Below are positions 763-11,333 of a stretch of DNA of 12,391 nt, piece after piece. Source of the stretch: Treponema sp. (lineage in GTDB: Bacteria > Spirochaetota > Spirochaetia > Treponematales > Treponemataceae). The stretch's first letter is position 1; each line of letters begins with the position of its first letter. The notes under the pieces were generated by a model. The model ran no database searches and was not told where the DNA came from. It was given only the letters and a program-made list of their open reading frames with translations. The position numbers were made by a program, and so were the translations under genes. Location of the stretch: assembly GCA_021442965.1 (NCBI GenBank), contig JABUUX010000053.1:1-12391 (forward strand). The letters run 5' to 3'.

Positions 763-818
763 TTTACATAAATTTTACATTTTTCTCCCCTAACCTTTAC
801 ATTTGTACCTTATAAAAT
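763..818 (+). promoter_or_regulatory. putative Pho box array and -10 of the Na+/Pi cotransporter gene
   Basis: TTTACAT occurs at 763-769, 774-780 and 796-802. The first two are separated by the 4-base spacer AAAT, and the third lies exactly 22 bp (two 11-bp units) after the second; the slot between them (785-791) does not match. A 7-bp direct repeat with a 4-bp spacer is the known geometry of the E. coli PhoB box, and the TTnACA core resembles the Bacillus PhoP box. A -10-like TATAAAAT lies at 811-818, 8 nt after the last repeat, where a PhoB-type activator would stand in for a -35 element. The predicted transcript start is near 824. The same arrangement occurs before the phoB-like gene in this window. 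Confidence 0.72.
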
Positions 819-856
819 AAGCGGTTTATTTTCAGCCGATTTTTTTGGGGGTACAT

Positions 857-2506
857 ATGGATATCTTTTCAGTTCTAACAATGATTGGTGGTCTTTCTCT
901 TTTTCTTTACGGCATGCACGTAATGGGACAAAGCCTTGGAAAACTTGCAGGAGGAAAACTTGAATCGCTTTTAGAAAAACTTACCGACAATCCCGTAAAA
1001 GCAGTTCTTCTTGGTTCCGGTGTAACCGCTGTAATTCAAAGTTCATCAGCTACAACAGTTATGGTTGTTGGATTTGTAAACTCAGGCCTTATGAGTTTAA
1101 AACAGTCAGTCGGAATAATAATGGGTGCTAACATCGGAACAACCATAACCTCCTGGATTCTTTCTTTAGCCGGAATAGAAGGAAACTCTGTTTGGGTTCG
1201 CCTGTTAAAACCTTCCAGCTTCAGCCCTATCCTGGCTCTTATAGGAGCTGTATTTCTTTTGTTCTGTAAATCAACTCGAAAAAAAGATTTAGGGAATATT
1301 TTCTTAGGCTTTGCAGTTTTAATGTTTGGAATGGAAACAATGAGTGGAGCTGTAAAACCTTTAGCAAAAATACCGGCTTTTACAAACCTTTTTACTATGT
1401 TTGAAAACCCATTTTTAGGAATGTGTGTAGGTGCCATTCTTACAGCAATTATTCAAAGTTCTTCTGCATCTGTGGGAATTCTTCAGGCACTTTGTCTTAC
1501 TGGAAGCGTAAGCCTTGGAAGCGCCATTCCAATCATCATGGGACAGAACATCGGAACTTGTGTAACAGCTTTAATTTCCGCAATTGGAGCACAAAAAAAT
1601 GCAAAACGTTCAGCTTTGGTTCATCTTTATTTTAATCTTATAGGAACAATTCTTTTTATGACAGTTTTTTACACTCTGAATGCATTCCTTGATTTTCAGT
1701 TTTTAAAAAATTCTGCCAGTGCCACAAGCATTGCAATTATTCATTCAGGATTTAATATTTCTGCAACACTTCTTCTTCTTCCATTCAGAAACCTAATCGA
1801 AAAACTTACACTTCTTACAATCCCTGTTTCAAAAGACGAAGAAAAAAGAAATTCTAATGAACTTTTCGATATGCGCCTTCTAGAAACCCCAGGAATCGCA
1901 GTTGCGCTGGTAAGAAATGCAGTATGCGATATGGCTCAATCCATTCAAAAATCTTTCCAACTTTGCACCCTTTGTCTTACAGAATACGATGAGAAAAAAA
2001 TTAAGACCGTTATGGAAATTGAAGATGATTTAGACAATGTACAAGTTTCACTTACCAGTGCTATAGAAAAACTTGCATCAAAAGAACTTGATGAAAAAGA
2101 CAGCCACAGAATTTTTGTTTACGAAAAAGCTGTCACAGACTTTGAGCGTATAAGTGATTACGAAAAATCCATTGTACATGCGTTTGAAAAAATGAACCGC
2201 AAAAAAGAAAAATTCACCAAAGAGGGATTTTCGGAAGCAAAAAAAATATTTTCTGCAACAAACGATATGCTGGAAGAAACTGTAAATGCTTTTATTCATG
2301 AAGATGAAAAAGATGAAGAACTTTTGAACGATCTTTTTACAAGACGTAAAATTATAAAATCCATGAAAAAAGAAATCCAGAAAAACCACAAAGCCCGGCT
2401 TGAAAATGGCGAATGTTCCGTAGACGTTGGAATCGTTCTTATAGAAATGACTTCCAGTCTGAACCGCATTGCAGGTCACTTAAAGTCAGTTGCCGAAGTT
2501 ATATAG
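857..2506 (+). CDS. Na+/phosphate cotransporter with C-terminal PhoU-like domain (NptA/YjbB type)
   Basis: A 549-residue inner-membrane protein predicted to import or export inorganic phosphate coupled to sodium. It carries the inverted duplicated core typical of the Na/Pi-cotransporter family: QSSSA at residues 61-65 followed by GANIGTT (90-96), then QSSSA at 200-204 followed by GQNIGT (229-234). Hydrophobic segments fill residues 1 to about 325. From about 340 to the end the protein is charged and helical, with the spacing of a PhoU-like domain (EIEDDLDNVQ, FERISDYEKSIVHAFEK, NRIAGHLKSVAEV). Length and layout match E. coli YjbB. I chose ATG 857 because GGGGG at 847-851 gives a well-placed ribosome site; the in-frame TTG at 845 would overlap that site. 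The Pho-box-like array upstream suggests induction by phosphate starvation. The gene is monocistronic and convergent with the patatin gene. Confidence 0.92.
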   Translation: MDIFSVLTMIGGLSLFLYGMHVMGQSLGKLAGGKLESLLEKLTDNPVKAVLLGSGVTAVIQSSSATTVMVVGFVNSGLMSLKQSVGIIMGANIGTTITSWILSLAGIEGNSVWVRLLKPSSFSPILALIGAVFLLFCKSTRKKDLGNIFLGFAVLMFGMETMSGAVKPLAKIPAFTNLFTMFENPFLGMCVGAILTAIIQSSSASVGILQALCLTGSVSLGSAIPIIMGQNIGTCVTALISAIGAQKNAKRSALVHLYFNLIGTILFMTVFYTLNAFLDFQFLKNSASATSIAIIHSGFNISATLLLLPFRNLIEKLTLLTIPVSKDEEKRNSNELFDMRLLETPGIAVALVRNAVCDMAQSIQKSFQLCTLCLTEYDEKKIKTVMEIEDDLDNVQVSLTSAIEKLASKELDEKDSHRIFVYEKAVTDFERISDYEKSIVHAFEKMNRKKEKFTKEGFSEAKKIFSATNDMLEETVNAFIHEDEKDEELLNDLFTRRKIIKSMKKEIQKNHKARLENGECSVDVGIVLIEMTSSLNRIAGHLKSVAEVI

Positions 2507-2513
2507 AATTTGT

Positions 2514-2619
2514 TTGCGCCTTAACGCCTGTTCCAGCCTTCCCTAACGGTCATCCTCCGCACTCGCTTACGCTCGCTTGCGGTGGACTGCTTCGCAGGGC
2601 TTCCATAGGCTGGCGTGGG
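2514..2619. repeat. GC-rich palindromic intergenic element (REP/MITE-like; may act as bidirectional terminator)
   Basis: This 106-bp stretch starts 7 bp after the cotransporter stop and is clearly GC-rich (about 60% by eye) in AT-rich surroundings. It has nested inverted repeats. CCAGCC (2533-2538) pairs with GGCTGG (2608-2613). Inside that, TCCTCCGCA (2553-2561) pairs with TGCGGTGGA (2578-2586) with one mismatch. CTGC-TTC-GCAG (2587-2597) forms a small hairpin. The loop contains a near-perfect tandem direct repeat, CTCGCTTACG then CTCGCTTGCG (2562-2581). No credible coding frame crosses it. It fills the convergent gap between two genes, so it could stop transcription from both sides. Membership of a dispersed repeat family is an inference from its look. 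Confidence 0.6.
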
Positions 2620-2665
2620 TTATTAACTTTACTTTTTATTTTATACTTCCTCTATCCCCCACTCA

Positions 2666-5068
2666 CTAAAACCTGAAATTTCCAAAGTCTACGCTCAAGA
2701 AAGGAAGCACTGTTTCATTTTTTATCATTCCGGCTCCGGCACGAATATAAACATTTACGTAATCTTTAAATCGCACGCCAACCCCTAATGCAGTGTTCCA
2801 CTTTAAACATTCCTGTGCATAATAATCACCAAGCCCCCATTGAACCTGAGCATCAGAAGGAACCAGCTGATTACTTAAACTGAAAAGACCTGAAAAATCA
2901 TATCCAACATTGTAAATGGAACCAGAAAGAAGGAAATACATTTCTCCACCCAAAATGGAAAGTTCATCTTTTGGTTTATACTGAAGATTTAAATTTGCAC
3001 CAAACTTTTTTGTCCCAAGATATGCTTTATTTACCATCTGTGGTGCATAGCATCTATCCATCATATTAAATCCTTCAGAATAACAAATATTTGAATATGG
3101 AGACAGATTATTTGTAGGTTCCATTCCAAAAATACTTCGACCAGTAATTGACCATTTACTGCTCATAGGAATTGCAAATTGAATTTCCCCTGTAAACACA
3201 CATGAAATATCTTTCATATAAGACGGATCACAAATTGGAACCAGCAATTTTCCACCTGCATCAAGTCTAAATCCATACTCAGGAAAATTATCATTATCCA
3301 AAGTATCAAAGCAATAATCCAAACTGGCTCCCATAAATTGAACTACTGAACTTTTATATTCATCAACAAAAGAATAATAGAAGGTTTCTACATCATCCAA
3401 ATAAGCAAATAAATCCAAAGGATGACTTTTATAAAAGACTTTTAAAAGACCGTCATTACCCGAAAATGTTTTAAATCCAAGCCCCACATGTGCTTCAAAT
3501 TTTTTATCCTGTTCATTAAAATAATTTTCTCTTTCACCTTTAAAAAACTTAAAAGTACTAAACATATCTAAAGAAGCAGAAACACCACTTTGAAAAAACA
3601 GATAAGGATTTAAAGGCTGAAAATAAAATACTTTTGCACCAAATTTATTAACCAAATCAAATCTTAAACTTAAAAGACTGTTTGGACCTGTAAGACCTCT
3701 TAGTTGAATGTCCGGGGAAATAATCAATTTTGAAAGTGTATAATCCGTAAAAGTCTGATTTAAATTTATACCGACCAAGATTCTGGGTTTTAAATCTCCC
3801 ATGTCATTTGCCCTTATACACAAAACAGATTTTTCACCCCGACGTAATATCCTAAGCTGAACAGTTTTGTAATTTCCGGTTCTTACAAAAAAATCCATCA
3901 TGTAGTCAAAGAAAGCTTCGGTAAATCCCATTGACTTAGCAAACTCAAATTCTTGTTTTATAAATGCGTGCTCATATTCCTCTACTCCGTACAGCTCTAT
4001 TTCATCCGGATAGAAATACTCTCGGCTCTGATAATTTGTTTCATGAAGTTTTACTTCGGTGTTTTTTTCTGCTGCATGTGAATAAATTTTTTCTTTTAGT
4101 TCCTCAAAAGCCGGTCTAAATTCATTAACAGCCTCCAACCCTTTATTATAAATCTCTTCGGCTTTTGTAAATGAAACAGCAGAAAAATTGTCAATCTCTG
4201 GACGCACATAAATATCTGCCTGTTTCTGAAGCATAGTAATTTCATCCAATGTAGAATACGTTGTCATCTGCATAATCATACTTGCAGGGCTTCCTTCAAA
4301 ATCTGTTGGCTCAGTTGGAAGACGTGACGAAATATCAAGCGCAATTATATAATCATATCCCAAATCTTTTGCAATATTTGTTGCCAGATTATTTTTTAAT
4401 CCTCCATCAATGTAATATTCACCATCTACTTCATAAGTCATAAAGGCAATTGGAAGCCCCATGGAACATCGTATAGCTTCTGCTATATCACCGCTTTCAA
4501 ATACATCGGCTTTCCCAGTCATAAGATTTGTTGCAACACACCTAAAAGGAATTGGCAGTTCATTAAAATCCATATCAGATGGAAATTTCAAAGTAAACTT
4601 TCTTAGCTTTTCATAAACCTTCTGCCCCGAAGAAAGCCCGCTTCCAAGTTTCAGTTTAAAGTTTTCATCAAAACTCAAAGAAACAGCATTCGCATGGTAA
4701 GAATGTTCTTCCTGATAATCTTCAAAAGGTGAAAGCACTTGATCTGAAAAAAAGTTAGACCACTTCAGATCGAAAAACTCTTTTTTTATTTCCTCTGCAG
4801 AATATCCTGCCGAATATAAACCTCCAAGAATACTTCCTACACTGGTTCCAATAACAAGATCCACCGGGATTCCCAGTTCATCTATTAATTCCATAAGTGG
4901 AATCTGAGCAAATCCTTTTGCACCTCCTCCTGCAAGTACTAGAGCAACGCTCGGTCTGCCTTCAGGCTTAGGTGCAGAAGAAACGTTATCAATAGGAACA
5001 GGTTTGGCAAAAAGACCTGAACAAAAAAGCAATATAAGGAAAATAACAAAAATATTCTTAATTCTCAT
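2666..5068 (-). CDS. patatin-like phospholipase with POTRA and outer-membrane barrel (PlpD-like, type Vd autotransporter)
   Basis: An 800-residue protein predicted to be a lipid acyl hydrolase carried to or through the outer membrane by its own barrel. A signal peptide occupies about residues 1-21 (basic MRIK, hydrophobic core, ending GLFA). The patatin domain (about 40-250) has the oxyanion-hole GGGAKG (47-52), the nucleophile motif GTSVGS with Ser76, and DGG with catalytic Asp221, so the Ser-Asp dyad is intact. Residues about 355-422 look like one POTRA repeat, and about 425-800 is a run of alternating strands ending in aromatic NFRF, a typical barrel-assembly signal. This order matches Pseudomonas PlpD and Fusobacterium FplA. 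The start is ATG at 5068-5066 with only a weak GAAGA upstream; the signal peptide directly after it supports the choice. The gene is divergent from the phoB-like gene across 145 bp. Substrate is unknown. Confidence 0.9.
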   Translation of the reverse strand: MRIKNIFVIFLILLFCSGLFAKPVPIDNVSSAPKPEGRPSVALVLAGGGAKGFAQIPLMELIDELGIPVDLVIGTSVGSILGGLYSAGYSAEEIKKEFFDLKWSNFFSDQVLSPFEDYQEEHSYHANAVSLSFDENFKLKLGSGLSSGQKVYEKLRKFTLKFPSDMDFNELPIPFRCVATNLMTGKADVFESGDIAEAIRCSMGLPIAFMTYEVDGEYYIDGGLKNNLATNIAKDLGYDYIIALDISSRLPTEPTDFEGSPASMIMQMTTYSTLDEITMLQKQADIYVRPEIDNFSAVSFTKAEEIYNKGLEAVNEFRPAFEELKEKIYSHAAEKNTEVKLHETNYQSREYFYPDEIELYGVEEYEHAFIKQEFEFAKSMGFTEAFFDYMMDFFVRTGNYKTVQLRILRRGEKSVLCIRANDMGDLKPRILVGINLNQTFTDYTLSKLIISPDIQLRGLTGPNSLLSLRFDLVNKFGAKVFYFQPLNPYLFFQSGVSASLDMFSTFKFFKGERENYFNEQDKKFEAHVGLGFKTFSGNDGLLKVFYKSHPLDLFAYLDDVETFYYSFVDEYKSSVVQFMGASLDYCFDTLDNDNFPEYGFRLDAGGKLLVPICDPSYMKDISCVFTGEIQFAIPMSSKWSITGRSIFGMEPTNNLSPYSNICYSEGFNMMDRCYAPQMVNKAYLGTKKFGANLNLQYKPKDELSILGGEMYFLLSGSIYNVGYDFSGLFSLSNQLVPSDAQVQWGLGDYYAQECLKWNTALGVGVRFKDYVNVYIRAGAGMIKNETVLPFLSVDFGNFRF

Positions 5069-5152
5069 TCTTCAATTTTAACGCATATGTAAATAAAAAC
5101 CACAAAAAATTTTTACCACGTTTTTCAAATTCAGATTTTTGACTATAAAGAT

Positions 5153-5207
5153 TTTACATAATATTTACATCCGAAGATTTATTTTTCTGATATAATTTTT
5201 ATATAAT
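5153..5207 (+). promoter_or_regulatory. putative Pho box and promoter of the phoBR-like operon
   Basis: Two exact TTTACAT heptamers lie at 5153-5159 and 5164-5170, separated by the 4-base spacer AATA, so their period is 11 bp. This is the same unit and spacing as before the cotransporter gene at 763-802. Two -10-like TATAAT hexamers follow at 5191-5196 and 5202-5207. The first stands 20 nt after the repeats, within 1 bp of the same helical phase as in the cotransporter promoter (8 nt plus one 11-bp turn). This suggests autoregulation by the encoded response regulator. The region also separates the divergent patatin gene, which might share the control. Confidence 0.68.
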
Positions 5208-5213
5208 TTACTT

Positions 5214-5897
5214 ATGCAAACTGTTTACATTGTAGAAGATGACAAAAACATTTCGGAAATAGAATTTTTTACCCTAAAGAATGCCGGTTTTGATCCGGTC
5301 TGCTTTTACGAAAATACTTCTTTTCAAAAAGCCATGGAACAAAAACTTCCCTCTATTGTAATTCTGGATATTATGCTTCCGGGAACTGATGGAATCTCAA
5401 TCTTAAAAAAAATTAGAACTCAAGAACATACAAAGAATCTTCCCGTTATAATGGTTACAGCTAAAGCTTCCGAAATTGATACTGTAAAAGCTCTTGATTA
5501 CGGTGCAGATGATTACATTACAAAACCTTTTGGTTTAATGGAACTAGTCAGCCGAGTAAAAGCAGTTCTTAGGCGCGGAATCCTTTCAACTTCTAAATCA
5601 GAATCCTCAACACCTATTTCTTTGGGAAAAATTAAAATTGATGTAAAAAGCCGGACTGTAACCATCAGCAATAATCCAATAGAACTGACTTTCAAAGAAT
5701 TTGAACTGCTTCTTCTTCTAATACAAAACAAAGGTAATGTTCTGACACGTGAATTCCTTTTAGATAAAATATGGAACACCTCTCCTGACATTGAAAGTCG
5801 TACGGTAGACATGCATATAAAAACACTAAGAAAAAAACTTGAAGCAGAAGGAAACAGGATTGTAACCGTAAGAAACGTAGGCTACAAGGCGGTATAA
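5214..5897 (+). CDS. phoB: OmpR/PhoB-family response regulator, probably phosphate regulon
   Basis: A 227-residue DNA-binding response regulator. The receiver domain (about 3-115) has the acidic pair Asp9/Asp10, phospho-acceptor Asp52 in ILDIMLPG, switch Thr82 and Lys104 in TKPF. The C-terminal winged helix (about 133-226) shows FKEFELLLLLIQNKGNVLTR and the recognition region SRTVDMHIKTLRKKL, ending GYKAV as in PhoB and PhoP proteins. The start is ATG 5214; no purine-rich ribosome site precedes it. The kinase gene starts 2 nt after its stop, so the two are co-transcribed. PhoB identity rests on the partner kinase resembling PhoR, on the Pho-box-like repeats just upstream, and on the same repeats at a phosphate transporter gene 4.4 kb away. 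The OmpR-family call is secure; the phosphate role is a strong inference. Confidence 0.88.
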   Translation: MQTVYIVEDDKNISEIEFFTLKNAGFDPVCFYENTSFQKAMEQKLPSIVILDIMLPGTDGISILKKIRTQEHTKNLPVIMVTAKASEIDTVKALDYGADDYITKPFGLMELVSRVKAVLRRGILSTSKSESSTPISLGKIKIDVKSRTVTISNNPIELTFKEFELLLLLIQNKGNVLTREFLLDKIWNTSPDIESRTVDMHIKTLRKKLEAEGNRIVTVRNVGYKAV

Positions 5898-7332: not shown

Positions 7333-8178
7333 ATGAAAATTGAATTCAATGAAACAGAACTTAAATCTTTTCCAAATTTCAAAGGTGGTGAAGGAACTCT
7401 AAATGCAAAAATGTTTTTTGACGGGAAAAACAGAATCCTTTACGGAAGACTGGAGCCATCTTCATCCATTGGACTTCACTGCCACGATACATCAAGTGAA
7501 ATTATTTATATCATAAGCGGAAACGGAAAAGTAGTAATTGATGGCTCAATAGAATCACTCAAACCCGGAGACTGCCATTATTGTCCTAAAGGTCATTTTC
7601 ACAGTCTTCAAAACGAAGACAAAACTTTTTGTCTGGATTTTTTTGCTGTAGTTCCAGAAGATGATGTCTTTGCAAAAATGCAGTCCCGCAGATCTATCCG
7701 AAAATTTTTACCACAACTTCCACCAAAAGAAAAAATCGAAAAAGTTATAGAAGCCGGAAGATGGGCAGCCAGCGGAAGAAATCTTCAGTCTTCAATAATC
7801 GTTGCTGTAACTAATAAAGAAATAATTTCAAAACTTACAAAAATTAACGGGGAAATTTCAGAACGCTCAAATGACCAGTTTTACGGAGCACCGGTAATTC
7901 TAATTGTTTTGTCCGATAAAAACTGGCGTAACAAAACATACGACGGCTCCCTCATTCTTGGAAACATGATGCTCATGGCTCACGATTTAGGATTAGGCTC
8001 CTGCTGGATTCACAGAGCTAGAGAAGAATTTGAAACACCGGAATGGCAGGATTGGCTTAAAAGTCTTGGTGTTGAAGGCGAATGGGAAGGTATCGGTCAC
8101 CTGGCACTTGGAATCCCTGACGGAGACATTCCAGATCCAATTCCACGTTCAGGGAACAAAGTTTTTTGGTGTGAATAG
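7333..8178 (+). CDS. cupin-nitroreductase fusion protein
   Basis: A 281-residue cytoplasmic protein with two domains usually found on separate chains. Residues about 20-108 form a cupin barrel. Motif 1 is GLHCHDTSSEIIYIISGNG, with metal-ligand positions His49, His51 and Glu56; motif 2 is GDCHYCPKGHFHSLQN (79-94) with Pro85, Gly87 and ligand His90. Residues about 113-280 form an FMN-dependent nitroreductase-family domain: SRRSIRKF (118-125) for FMN phosphate binding, AASGRNLQ (145-152), and the later GSLILGNMMLMAHDLGLGSCWI (helix plus glycine turn) and HLALGIPD. AGGTGA at 7324-7329 supports ATG 7333. It sits 89 bp after phoR, with no clear terminator between, and has no obvious functional tie to it. 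The substrate is unknown; the cupin may bind metal or a small ligand that is then reduced with NAD(P)H. The domain calls are firm, the joint function is not. Confidence 0.87.
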   Translation: MKIEFNETELKSFPNFKGGEGTLNAKMFFDGKNRILYGRLEPSSSIGLHCHDTSSEIIYIISGNGKVVIDGSIESLKPGDCHYCPKGHFHSLQNEDKTFCLDFFAVVPEDDVFAKMQSRRSIRKFLPQLPPKEKIEKVIEAGRWAASGRNLQSSIIVAVTNKEIISKLTKINGEISERSNDQFYGAPVILIVLSDKNWRNKTYDGSLILGNMMLMAHDLGLGSCWIHRAREEFETPEWQDWLKSLGVEGEWEGIGHLALGIPDGDIPDPIPRSGNKVFWCE

Positions 8179-8245: not shown

Positions 8246-8857
8246 ATGACTTTTTCAGAAGAGATTACAAACAAAGTAAAAACTATATATACAAATCTTG
8301 AAGCAATACAAAAAAACTGGTTAGAAAAAACACAATTCTACTGCCCCGAAGGCTGTGGTTCCTGCTGCATAAATTTTGAACCTGAAGTTTTTGAAATTGA
8401 AGCTATGTACATGGCAGAATGGCTCATAGAAAATCAATATGACAAAGCATTAGATATTGCAGCTGGAAACTTCTGTAAAGACTACAACGAAAAAACCTGT
8501 ATTTTTTTTAATCCCCAAAACGCATATCACTGTTCTATTTATGGGGGACGGCCTTTTATATGCAGACTGTTTGGTGCAAGTTCCTTTCACGATAAGACTG
8601 GAAAAACAGTATGGAGACCCTGTAAATTTATTCCGGTTACAAAATTACAGAAACACAAGCCTCCTCTTTTACATAAGCAATATAACTTTAATGAGGCAGA
8701 AAATATCCTGGGTGCAGTGCCTCCGGTAATGTCAGACATCATGGAGCAAGCGGTATCACTTTCCCCCGACAGCACTTCCACTTTGCCACTACGAAAAATT
8801 CTTCCAGCTATCATAAGAAAAATACTCTTTGAACGTCAGCTTAAAGAAAATGTTTAA
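8246..8857 (+). CDS. YkgJ-family cysteine-cluster protein (putative zinc/iron-binding)
   Basis: A 203-residue soluble protein with the N-terminal cysteine cluster of the YkgJ family: Cys33-x3-Cys37-x2-Cys40-Cys41 in CPEGCGSCC. Further cysteines follow at 77, 85, 96, 106 and 126, and the conserved segment GGRPFICRLFG lies at 100-110. Members are annotated as zinc- or iron-chelating proteins, but their biochemical role is poorly known. I prefer ATG 8246. An in-frame TTG at 8222 would add eight residues but has no ribosome site; the ATG itself has only AGGA one base upstream, so the start is not certain. The gene follows the cupin-nitroreductase gene by 67 bp on the same strand and may be co-transcribed. 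Its stop overlaps that of the convergent ABC gene in a shared TTAA. Confidence 0.83.
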   Translation: MTFSEEITNKVKTIYTNLEAIQKNWLEKTQFYCPEGCGSCCINFEPEVFEIEAMYMAEWLIENQYDKALDIAAGNFCKDYNEKTCIFFNPQNAYHCSIYGGRPFICRLFGASSFHDKTGKTVWRPCKFIPVTKLQKHKPPLLHKQYNFNEAENILGAVPPVMSDIMEQAVSLSPDSTSTLPLRKILPAIIRKILFERQLKENV

Positions 8858-10311
8858 ATACTGACAATACATTCAGCATGTTCTTTTGCTTCCCTTTCAT
8901 CATGTGTCACAAAAATAAGAGTTCTGGTTTCTTCAACTAAAAGATTCTCAATTAATGCCCAATGTGCCTTTTTTGAATTCTCATCAAGAGAATTTGTTCC
9001 TTCGTCCATAAGAATTACAGAGGATGGGAAAGCAAAAGCTCTGGCAGCCTGAACTTTTTGTCTTTCTCCACCACTTAAGTCATCAGGGAATGAATAAGCT
9101 CTTTCTCTAAGTCCCACTTTGTCTAAATAATAAAAAGCCCTTTTATAAGCATCTTCTTTTTTCATTATGGAAAAAAGTGGCAATGCAACATTTTTTAATA
9201 CTGTTATTCCCAAAACCAGTCTGTCTTCTTGAAATATTACTGAAACTTCAGGACACAAAACTGTACCTGTCCATTGGGAAGAAGGAATAATACCGGAAAG
9301 AATTTTTAATAGTGTTGTTTTTCCACTTCCTGTTGGTGAAACTATTGCAGTTTTTTTATGTGATTCAAAATCAATAGAAAAATCAGAAAAAATTTTACGC
9401 TCCACTGTTTCTGTTTTATAAGAAAAGGATAGATTCTTTATATTGACTGCTGTGTCAGGAAGTGAAGCAGTTTGCAAATCCTTTGGTTTTAAAAAAACCG
9501 AAGTGTCAGAGTCAGAAGACATAACTGCAAAAGCCCCGTCACAAATGTGTCTCCGACACTTACTGCTAACAATCATAACTAACTTACACAAACCAAAGAA
9601 AATTTTTTCGGATACTATACATAAGAGTGAAAGAGACACAGTCAGTGCAAAAACTTTTGGAGTATCCAAAATAATACGACTGTCTTGAAGCATTGTTCCC
9701 AATGCATTACGAGGAAGTGCCAGTATTTCTCCAGCAGCCACAACTTTCCATCCTTGAGAAAACACTGTATGTGCAGCCCCAACAAAATAAGGCTTTATAC
9801 ATGGTATATATACACATGATAATTTTGTAAAAGAAGACAATTTAAATACATAAGCCATTTCCAAAAGTTTTTTATCAGTTTGACGAACAGCTTTACAAAC
9901 AGAATCTGTCATTAATGGAAGGCCCATAAGGACTGCGCAAATTACAGGAAGTGTTTTCGAATCAAACCAAAAAAGCATAATCATTATGACTGCTACTACA
10001 GGAGTTGTTCGGATTATTGAAAGAGGAAAAAATAAAAAACTCTTTACACCGTTCCAAAACCCTGAAGCAAGTCCCAGAATTGTACCCAAAAAAAGTGTTA
10101 GAATAAAAGCTTCTAAAACTCTTAGCACAGAACTGCTTAGTGAAATCCAGAATTGTTTTTCTACCACTAATCGGGAAAATTCTTTAATAACTGTTTTTAA
10201 ATGTGGAAACACCAGAGGAGAATCAATCACATAAGAAAAGATTTCCCAGCATCCAAAAAAAATAAAAATTGATAAAACTATAATCAGGTTGTTTCTTAAT
10301 TTTTCTTTCAT
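8854..10311 (-). CDS. ABC transporter permease-ATPase fusion, NitT/TauT (SsuC-SsuB) type
   Basis: A 485-residue protein joining two normally separate subunits. Residues about 8-245 are a permease of the SsuC/TauC family with about six membrane helices and an EAA-like cytoplasmic loop (EMAYVFKLSSFTKLSCVYIP, 151-170). After a linker (about 246-288) comes an ABC ATPase: Walker A SPTGSGKTT (325-333; the first Gly of the motif is Ser, with Lys331 kept), Q-loop Gln361, signature LSGGERQK (412-419), Walker B VILMDE with catalytic Glu437, D-loop SLDE and H-loop His470. All catalytic residues are present, so it should work as a homodimer that forms the complete transporter. The start ATG (10311-10309) overlaps the binding-protein stop as ATGA, a classic coupled junction. 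Substrate cannot be read from sequence; the class covers nitrate, sulfonates, taurine and thiamine precursors. Confidence 0.9.
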   Translation of the reverse strand: MKEKLRNNLIIVLSIFIFFGCWEIFSYVIDSPLVFPHLKTVIKEFSRLVVEKQFWISLSSSVLRVLEAFILTLFLGTILGLASGFWNGVKSFLFFPLSIIRTTPVVAVIMIMLFWFDSKTLPVICAVLMGLPLMTDSVCKAVRQTDKKLLEMAYVFKLSSFTKLSCVYIPCIKPYFVGAAHTVFSQGWKVVAAGEILALPRNALGTMLQDSRIILDTPKVFALTVSLSLLCIVSEKIFFGLCKLVMIVSSKCRRHICDGAFAVMSSDSDTSVFLKPKDLQTASLPDTAVNIKNLSFSYKTETVERKIFSDFSIDFESHKKTAIVSPTGSGKTTLLKILSGIIPSSQWTGTVLCPEVSVIFQEDRLVLGITVLKNVALPLFSIMKKEDAYKRAFYYLDKVGLRERAYSFPDDLSGGERQKVQAARAFAFPSSVILMDEGTNSLDENSKKAHWALIENLLVEETRTLIFVTHDEREAKEHAECIVSI

Positions 10312-11288
10312 TTGTAAAAATCATTTCCGGGAAGTTTTCCGCCTATAGAATCTTCATTCTGGTCTAAAAAGATTTTTAAAAGATTTTCAATTTTTTTCTT
10401 TGAATCTTTTGCAGAATAAAAAACATAAGCTCCGTTTGGAATTGAAGCAGAAGCTATATTTGCTTTTAATCCCAAAGTATGTTTTTCAACAAGCCTTCCC
10501 GCTTCTGTAGGATTCTCATTTGTCCATGTTACTGCAGTTTTGTATTCTGAAAGAAAAGCTTCAATGACTTCTTTTTTTTCTTCATACACTTTTTTATTGC
10601 ATACTAAAAGTGTCATTGGGAAATTATCATTTGAACTTTTTAGTGATGCATATTCTTCAGAAAGTGTTGTTACTTTTTTAACTCCTTTATTTTTTCCCTG
10701 CATTAATGCTACTGTTGCAAATGGTTCCGGAACCAGAATATATTCAGCTTTCCCAGAAACAAGGGCTGCAGCAATTTCTGGATTTGGAATAGAAAAATCA
10801 AGATATAGTGCATTCTGACGGATTGAAGAATTATTACTGCACGGAATATTTTTTTCTTTCAGAATATACCGGAACATATATTCAGGGGTTGCTCCACGAC
10901 CTGCACAGTAAATTGTGCTTCCCGGTAAAATATCTGAAAGACTTTTACATTCAAGATTTGTTGTTAATAGAGAAACATTTCCTTCTCCAACTACAGCCAA
11001 TGCTAGAAGATTTCCCTTGGAGTTGTTCCACACTTTTGCAGCAGCGTTTGGTGGCAGAACACCGATATCAATTTCGCCTTTCAAAAGTTTTGGAAGTTCC
11101 AAATCAGCACCTGAAAAAATCTGAAAATTATAACTTGAGTTTGAACTACCCTCTTCCTTCTCCATTATATAAGCACCAGGAACTGCTGAAGGACCATTCA
11201 GAACGCCTATATTAAGTACAGGGGTTTCGCACCACATTGATGAAATAGAAAATATTAAAAGTGAAAGAATCGCAGCTGCTTTTTTCAT
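10308..11288 (-). CDS. periplasmic substrate-binding protein of a NitT/TauT-type ABC transporter
   Basis: A 326-residue exported solute-binding protein, first gene of a two-gene operon with the permease-ATPase. An N-terminal signal peptide (MKKAAAILSLLIFSISSMWC) is followed by a mature domain beginning VLNIGVLNGPSAVPG. The mature part shows the SsuA/TauA-like pattern: LLKGEIDIGVLPPNAAAKV near residue 70, an inter-lobe segment STIYCAGRGATPEYMFRYIL, and VSGKAEYILVPEPFATVAL. A Cys at residue 20 ends the hydrophobic core, but the preceding Met-Trp is a poor lipobox, so soluble periplasmic export is as likely as a lipoprotein. I chose ATG 11288-11286 because AAGGA (11300-11296 on the reverse strand) stands 7 nt before it and the signal peptide begins there; a frame start at 11333 would add 15 residues ahead of the signal peptide. 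Ligand unknown. Confidence 0.87.
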   Translation of the reverse strand: MKKAAAILSLLIFSISSMWCETPVLNIGVLNGPSAVPGAYIMEKEEGSSNSSYNFQIFSGADLELPKLLKGEIDIGVLPPNAAAKVWNNSKGNLLALAVVGEGNVSLLTTNLECKSLSDILPGSTIYCAGRGATPEYMFRYILKEKNIPCSNNSSIRQNALYLDFSIPNPEIAAALVSGKAEYILVPEPFATVALMQGKNKGVKKVTTLSEEYASLKSSNDNFPMTLLVCNKKVYEEKKEVIEAFLSEYKTAVTWTNENPTEAGRLVEKHTLGLKANIASASIPNGAYVFYSAKDSKKKIENLLKIFLDQNEDSIGGKLPGNDFYK

Positions 11289-11333
11289 AAAAAAGTCCTT
11301 TATATAAATAAATTTTGTATAATGTAATCTCAA

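Follow-up and report, generated by a model that had tools for sequence, protein, structure and literature searches.

The window analyzed herein, that is, the whole stretch of 12,391 bases, carries the gene for a Na/Pi cotransporter, nptA, and, downstream of a patatin-like phospholipase gene that runs in the opposite direction, a phoB-like response regulator gene and a phoR/pnpS-like histidine kinase gene (Table 1). NptA matched the Pfam families PF02690 (4e-67) and PF01895 (7e-18), while the patatin-like protein matched PF01734 (5e-31), with its Omp85 match falling below the cut-off. By their Pfam domains, the next two genes encode an OmpR-type response regulator adjoining a PhoR/PnpS-type kinase. 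Their best NCBIfam models were PhoB (222 bits, below its cut-off of 296.2) and PnpS (262 bits, below its cut-off of 400), respectively; these scores being under the curated cut-offs, the named equivalogs are not reached. Despite the reversed patatin gene, the window retains the order nptA, phoB, phoR and a common direction for the three.

Table 1. Genes and predicted promoter elements around the two phosphate genes of the window.
Feature	Position	Strand	Basis
TTTACAT, unit 1 of predicted nptA Pho box	763..769	+	sequence; pair in 0/20,000 shuffles
TTTACAT, unit 2 of predicted nptA Pho box	774..780	+	sequence
TTTACAT, promoter-proximal unit, 33 bp after unit 1	796..802	+	sequence; third TTTAC in relatives
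Predicted -10 of nptA, TTATAAAAT; TATAAA at 811 or TAAAAT at 813	810..818	+	
nptA, Na/Pi cotransporter with C-terminal PhoU domain, 549 aa, ATG at 857	857..2506	+	Pfam; tree
Patatin-like phospholipase, weak Omp85-like C-terminus, spirochete-type, between nptA and phoB	2666..5068	-	Pfam, matches
TTTACAT, unit 1 of predicted phoB Pho box	5153..5159	+	sequence; pair in 2/20,000 shuffles
TTTACAT, unit 2 of predicted phoB Pho box	5164..5170	+	sequence
Two candidate phoB -10 elements, TATAAT at 5191-5196 and 5202-5207	5191..5207	+	sequence
phoB-like response regulator, 227 aa	5214..5897	+	PF00072, PF00486
phoR/pnpS-like histidine kinase, 447 aa	5900..7243	+	HisKA, HATPase_c

A sequence-only reading of this DNA had counted five exact TTTACAT heptamers before the two phosphate genes, and all five are present on the forward strand, at 763, 774, and 796 5' of nptA and at 5153 and 5164 5' of phoB. 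The slot at 785, between the second and third copies, holds no TTTACAT, and the nptA array is therefore 0/11/33. The whole window contains 13 copies (9 on the forward strand and 4 on the reverse), of which the remaining 8 are single and mostly intragenic. The exact pair TTTACAT-N4-TTTACAT occurs twice in the 12,391 bases and in none of 300 dinucleotide shuffles of the window. When the intergenic stretches were shuffled 20,000 times each, an exact pair on either strand appeared in 0 shuffles of 697-856 (64% A+T) and in 2 of 5069-5213 (81% A+T), and in 20,000 shuffle pairs no heptamer formed an 11-bp pair in the one stretch as well as in the other. The earlier argument that chance is an unlikely source of the repeats is thus borne out for the exact pairs, which are more than chance because they are absent, or nearly so, from shuffled sequence. 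Matches with up to three mismatches are no more than chance: 10 were found in the window against 5.1 expected, a total that 11 of 200 shuffles reach, and relaxed scanning was set aside as carrying little information. Downstream of the repeats lie a Na+/Pi cotransporter gene (PF02690) and a phoB-like/phoR-like pair, in line with the proposal of a Pho box before phosphate genes, and the TTTACAT repeat is very probably such a box.

At both phosphate genes, the direct TTTACA-like units, 11 bp apart, lie 5' of predicted -10 elements. In the nptA promoter, the third unit stands at +33 and TAAAAT at +50, and the predicted -10 occupies offset 48-50, the interval (+48 to +50) where TAnnnT elements accumulate in related nptA upstream regions. 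The distance from the last unit to the predicted -10 is 15-17 bp, and the spacing between Pho unit and -10 in Escherichia coli pstS is close to this. The second candidate -10 of phoB, at offset 49 from unit 1, is near the nptA layout; if it is used, the transcript would start at or near the ATG. The two TATAAT elements are 11 bp apart, and the stretch that holds them (5191-5214) shows no visible Shine-Dalgarno sequence before phoB. In the predicted nptA leader (822-844), a terminator-like hairpin and T-run are followed by GGGGG and the ATG, and terminator-like sites of this kind are no commoner than in shuffles. On the reverse strand near the patatin start (5076-5093), there is also an 11-of-14 box-like match, TTTACATATGCGTTAAAA, which is within chance of relaxed matching, and to which the divergent patatin gene might respond too.

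The same arrangement recurs before nptA in other bacteria. From a phoB scan of one-per-species genomes, the best 80 loci were taken, 72 from Bacillota and 7 from Fibrobacterota, a selection in which the absence of spirochetes says nothing. Seventy-two loci had 2.3 kb or more of sequence ahead of phoB, and in 46 of them the gene immediately upstream is a codirectional nptA. A box match of 12-14 of 14 was found in 47 of 58 nptA upstream regions, compared with about 0.6% of 2,900 Markov-shuffled ones, and a match of at least 12 of 14 lay on the opposite strand in 6 of the same 58. This set includes Treponema saccharophilum (13/14) and some paralogues, and was drawn up without L081-L086, whose NptA matches start after query residue 10, and without L015, which has less than 150 bp upstream. 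Conservation before orthologues, put forward earlier as a check on the motif, is therefore found. Further, with multiple matches per locus reduced to one, TTTACA-N5-TTTACA is present in 36 of 54 loci, and 33 of those 36 have a further TTTAC, at +33 (19 loci) or +34 (14 loci). Before phoB, a box of at least 12 of 14 was absent from all 48 loci in which nptA adjoins phoB on its 5' side and present in 3 of the 31 in which it does not. The peptide RTVDMHIKTLR of the window PhoB, which we take to be the DNA-reading helix of PhoB proteins, is identical in 65 of 79 related loci, as would be expected if these PhoB proteins read the same box. In the Fibrobacter loci L004, L005, and L021, boxes of 12 of 14 precede a distant nptA copy, and the Pho box may hence extend to a further phylum. 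IMG/VR yielded one NptA locus at 50%, with no TTTAC-N6-TTTAC in the 300 bp upstream of it, and no patatin relative.

A genome-wide count in 60 genomes from the family of Roseburia inulinivorans (Lachnospiraceae) gave 45 exact motifs in 28 genomes, against 15 occurrences of the reversed pattern in 12 genomes. Clustering at phosphate genes in relatives' genomes, which the sequence-only reading had suggested looking for, is evident there: a phosphate gene adjoins 16 of 30 motif loci (the 30 of the 45 places that came with a locus) versus 0 of 15 reversed controls, all of which were counted (Fisher p 0.0002, or 0.0005 without the centre genome's locus). Fourteen of the 16 phosphate neighbors are downstream and two are divergent, and they comprise nptA (12) and one each of pstS, a phosphonate/phosphate-binding gene, a polyphosphate kinase gene, and a PitA-like gene, with three of the calls (PhnD-like, PitA-like, and Ppk) below curated model cut-offs. 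At one locus, L126, the longest nptA reading shares its opening bases with the box. The other 14 of the 30 loci had no phosphate neighbor in the family scans, and among the non-phosphate neighbors are genes for sugar transport, regulators, a sigma factor, and a chemotaxis protein. The divergent neighbors of six motif loci (L107, L114, L116, L117, L120, and L127) and of three controls (L143, L144, and L149) were matched to the reference set only, rather than to the family libraries. Two of the 30 motif places and 5 of the 15 control places are intragenic. Outside the 16 of 30, two motif loci of the centre genome are divergent to an NptA-like gene (L098) and to a 5'-nucleotidase-like gene (L099).

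Among known systems, the closest to the window is the nptA-phoB-phoR operon of Lachnospiraceae and other Clostridia, for which we found no name in literature titles. Its three genes match those of the window in kind, order, and direction, and, like the window, it shows TTTACA[CT]-N4-TTTACA[CT], a third TTTAC at +33/34, and a -10-like element at about +48 to +50; a related locus, L002, has TTATAAAATAA of the nptA promoter in common with the window. The window departs from it in that the patatin gene separates nptA from phoB, phoB has an exact box of its own, and GC content and codon use follow the window's other genes. In Bacillus subtilis, the box of PhoP, the regulator of the PhoPR pair, consists of TT(A/T/C)A(C/T)A-like hexamers about 11 bp apart, which the TTTACAT core of the window resembles, and Bacillus PhoP has cell-wall polymer targets. 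In Streptococcus pneumoniae, the PnpR Pho box, TTTACACAATCTTTACA, is placed 92 bp before pstS1, and its TTTACA-N5-TTTACA core is that of the window (PMC4913102); among NCBIfam models, PnpS is the one that fits the window kinase best. The target there is pst1, and in the same passages no box is seen before pnpRS, whereas the predicted target in the window is nptA and the window phoB itself carries a box (PMC4913102). The E. coli PhoB box, as given in PMC4415409, has two 11-bp direct units of 7+4 with the core CTGTCAT; the window shares its layout, as had been pointed out earlier, 7+4 being the general layout of Pho boxes. An E. coli-type box was nonetheless rejected for the window on its core, since TTTACAT and CTGTCAT agree at 4 of 7 letters (PMC4415409). 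The further reading of the motif as this lineage's own does not hold: identical motif and layout precede nptA in Lachnospiraceae and other Clostridia, the core is that of the pneumococcal Pho box as described in PMC4913102, and the three proteins are of the clostridial type too, with PhoB a less clear case than NptA and PhoR.

The sole Treponema tested, T. saccharophilum, has nptA, phoB-phoR, and pst-phoU together (L087, 10190-18998) on its 382-kb plasmid pTS2. As in the window, a box precedes nptA (TTTACATTGATTTTACAG, 13/14) and phoB and phoR are adjacent; unlike in the window, nptA and phoB are divergent and pst-phoU is nearby. The best match before phoB is 11/14, the pst operon of pTS2 shows no clear box (best 9/14), and the only other one-mismatch site in the 382 kb overlaps a chemotaxis gene start. 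Relative to the window, NptA is 33.5% and PhoB 49.6% identical, with RTVDVHIRTLR in place of RTVDMHIKTLR, and both T. saccharophilum proteins sit on long branches that were not safely placed in the trees.

The host itself had been described as Treponema-like, a claim that gains support from one protein, the patatin-like phospholipase: among its best 120 matches, 14 are organism-named, of which 13 are spirochetes and one is a Bacteroides bin, and its best full-length identity, apart from an identical 605-aa piece, is 37%. Two other proteins were tried against plasmids and gave no assignment, namely AsnB, whose best rows are Bacteroides, Aeromonas, Parabacteroides, and E. coli at 66-68%, and an ABC permease-ATPase, with scattered taxa at no more than 34%. 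The phosphate genes, by comparison, tell of Clostridia. The window NptA and its 81% metagenome relative (P0002) were placed among the clostridial sequences of the NptA tree, as neighbors of a Blautia/Acetatifactor-like clade, and the 11-row set with nine donor-like loci was recovered at 100/100. An AU test rejected a grouping of 53 Lachnospiraceae-type rows that excluded the window pair (p 6e-5), the 53-row group having been defined with the tree already in view. The nine donor-like loci, which were defined from the NptA tree before PhoB and PhoR were tested, include five from Lachnospiraceae, one from Eubacteriaceae, one from Clostridiaceae, and one from Clostridia; nptA is directly 5' of phoB and nptA-phoB-phoR are contiguous in 9 of 9, and a 12-13 of 14 box precedes nptA in the 8 of 8 with readable upstream DNA. 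PhoR, independently, groups with the same nine loci at 99.8, and a joined NptA-PhoB-PhoR tree of 44 rows gave 100, with the window row flagged for odd composition. For PhoB, the free tree joins the window clade to L012 and L026 (SH-aLRT 95), in another part of Clostridia, while holding PhoB with the nine donor-like loci gave a likelihood 6.5 log units above the free tree and was not rejected (p 0.61).

As to sampling, the trees took in 16 of the 118 listed NptA matches below P0002 and five of the eight nearest PhoB matches (P0244-P0247 and P0249). The AU test and the 11-row NptA tree were run without other NptA types or Fibrobacter rows, the latter tree also without the 16 NptA protein matches, the joined tree without ten loci of other NptA types or Fibrobacter, and the constrained PhoB test without five long-branch or outgroup rows. 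Within this sampling, both NptA and PhoR fall inside Clostridia next to a single clade, the Blautia/Acetatifactor-like one, and the PhoB results can be reconciled with that placement. The age, the breadth, and even the direction of the transfer are less sure than the support values, because spirochete sampling is thin.

Taken together, the shared box and the clostridial-like genes suggest that a circuit, along with its predicted control DNA, was likely taken from a clostridium. We consider it probable, and hold with good confidence, that the TTTACAT repeats are predicted clostridial (PnpR/PhoP) Pho boxes and that nptA, phoB, and phoR were acquired as a unit that was later split. In this scenario, the simplest one for the gene order and boxes observed, a Treponema-like ancestor would have gained a Lachnospiraceae-type nptA-phoB-phoR operon in one piece, presumably with its Pho-box promoter. 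By analogy with the protein families, low phosphate would lead the PhoR-like kinase to phosphorylate PhoB; as a head-to-tail pair, PhoB would then occupy the TTTACAT units that lie 11 bp apart ahead of the -10, and the bound regulator would raise transcription both of nptA, for phosphate uptake, and of phoB-phoR, as autoregulation. The patatin gene, reversed between nptA and phoB, would have split the operon later. Since phoB in the relatives is contiguous with nptA and lacks a box of its own, the phoB box was probably gained when the gene was severed from the nptA promoter. A bolder version of these events, toward which we lean only slightly, is that a spirochete captured a whole clostridial phosphate circuit together with its operator, that a resident outer-membrane phospholipase gene cut the operon, and that the regulator half gained a fresh, perfect operator that restored control.

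Several other explanations were weighed against acquisition as a unit. The first, that the repeats are chance or AT-rich promoter-like sequence read by no regulator, can draw on intergenic DNA of 64-81% A+T and on the modest excess under relaxed matching (10 versus 5.1), but it is scarcely credible, given exact pairs that shuffling hardly ever reproduces and a layout that is conserved before nptA in dozens of genomes. A misassembly joining clostridial and spirochete DNA, such that the phosphate genes would belong to another organism, would fit the clostridial look of NptA, PhoB, and PhoR beside a spirochetal patatin gene, and the window NptA (P0001) was found on its source contig only. Yet the codon-use distance of nptA is 0.14 to the flanking genes versus 0.27-0.45 to the nine donor-like nptA genes, and its GC content is 0.36 versus 0.43-0.53 in the latter. 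Because nptA matches the flanking genes rather than the donor-like genes in both respects, a chimeric assembly is improbable, and a transfer, should it be real, would not be recent. In addition, PhoB recurs on two other contigs, with differences at 1 and 4 of 227 residues, and the nearest NptA relative is at 81% and the next at 61%, which is unlike a gene from well-sampled Lachnospiraceae; we regard a misassembly as very improbable.

Somewhat more weight, though still little, goes to the idea that the boxes are genuine but were assembled independently, with clostridial NptA and PhoB-PhoR arriving by separate transfers and the motif reflecting the preference of the regulator rather than an inherited promoter. 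The free PhoB tree, which sets the window clade apart from the donor clade of NptA and PhoR, speaks for this, as do the non-adjacency of nptA and phoB in the window and the phoB box, which has no counterpart where nptA directly precedes phoB (0/48), so that at least one box probably arose anew. However, PhoR and NptA are both strongly linked to the same nine loci in the trees, the likelihood rises when PhoB is held with these loci, gene order and common direction are kept, and the nptA promoter retains both the 0/11/33 layout and the stretch shared with L002. We therefore judge separate transfers rather unlikely, and acquisition as a unit remains our preferred explanation.

If the three genes were indeed captured together and then split, the window would offer a readable case of an operator and its regulator crossing phyla together and of a regulatory site that was restored following the breakup of an operon. 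The split operon with its second exact box would, in effect, be a small natural experiment on how regulation survives a post-transfer rearrangement. Our results also replace a lineage-specific motif with one of a known kind that has a likely source, and they provide a testable Pho-box model for a spirochete; a literature search over titles and abstract openings, with subscription journals mostly outside it, returned no treatment of a Pho box or Pho regulon in Treponema or other spirochetes.

Across the window, scans for Rfam families (at gathering scores) and tRNAs gave no matches. The stretch between the convergent nptA and patatin genes (2507-2665) is GC-rich (0.50) and contains the tandem CTCGCTTACG/CTCGCTTGCG, and a GC-rich 21-mer within it (2562-2582) had no exact match in IMG/VR. 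Downstream of the kinase gene, at 7333-8178, a 281-aa protein joins a cupin to a nitroreductase domain, and within 8854-11333, on the reverse strand, a permease and an ATPase are fused in a 485-aa protein beside an NMT1/SsuA-like binding protein.
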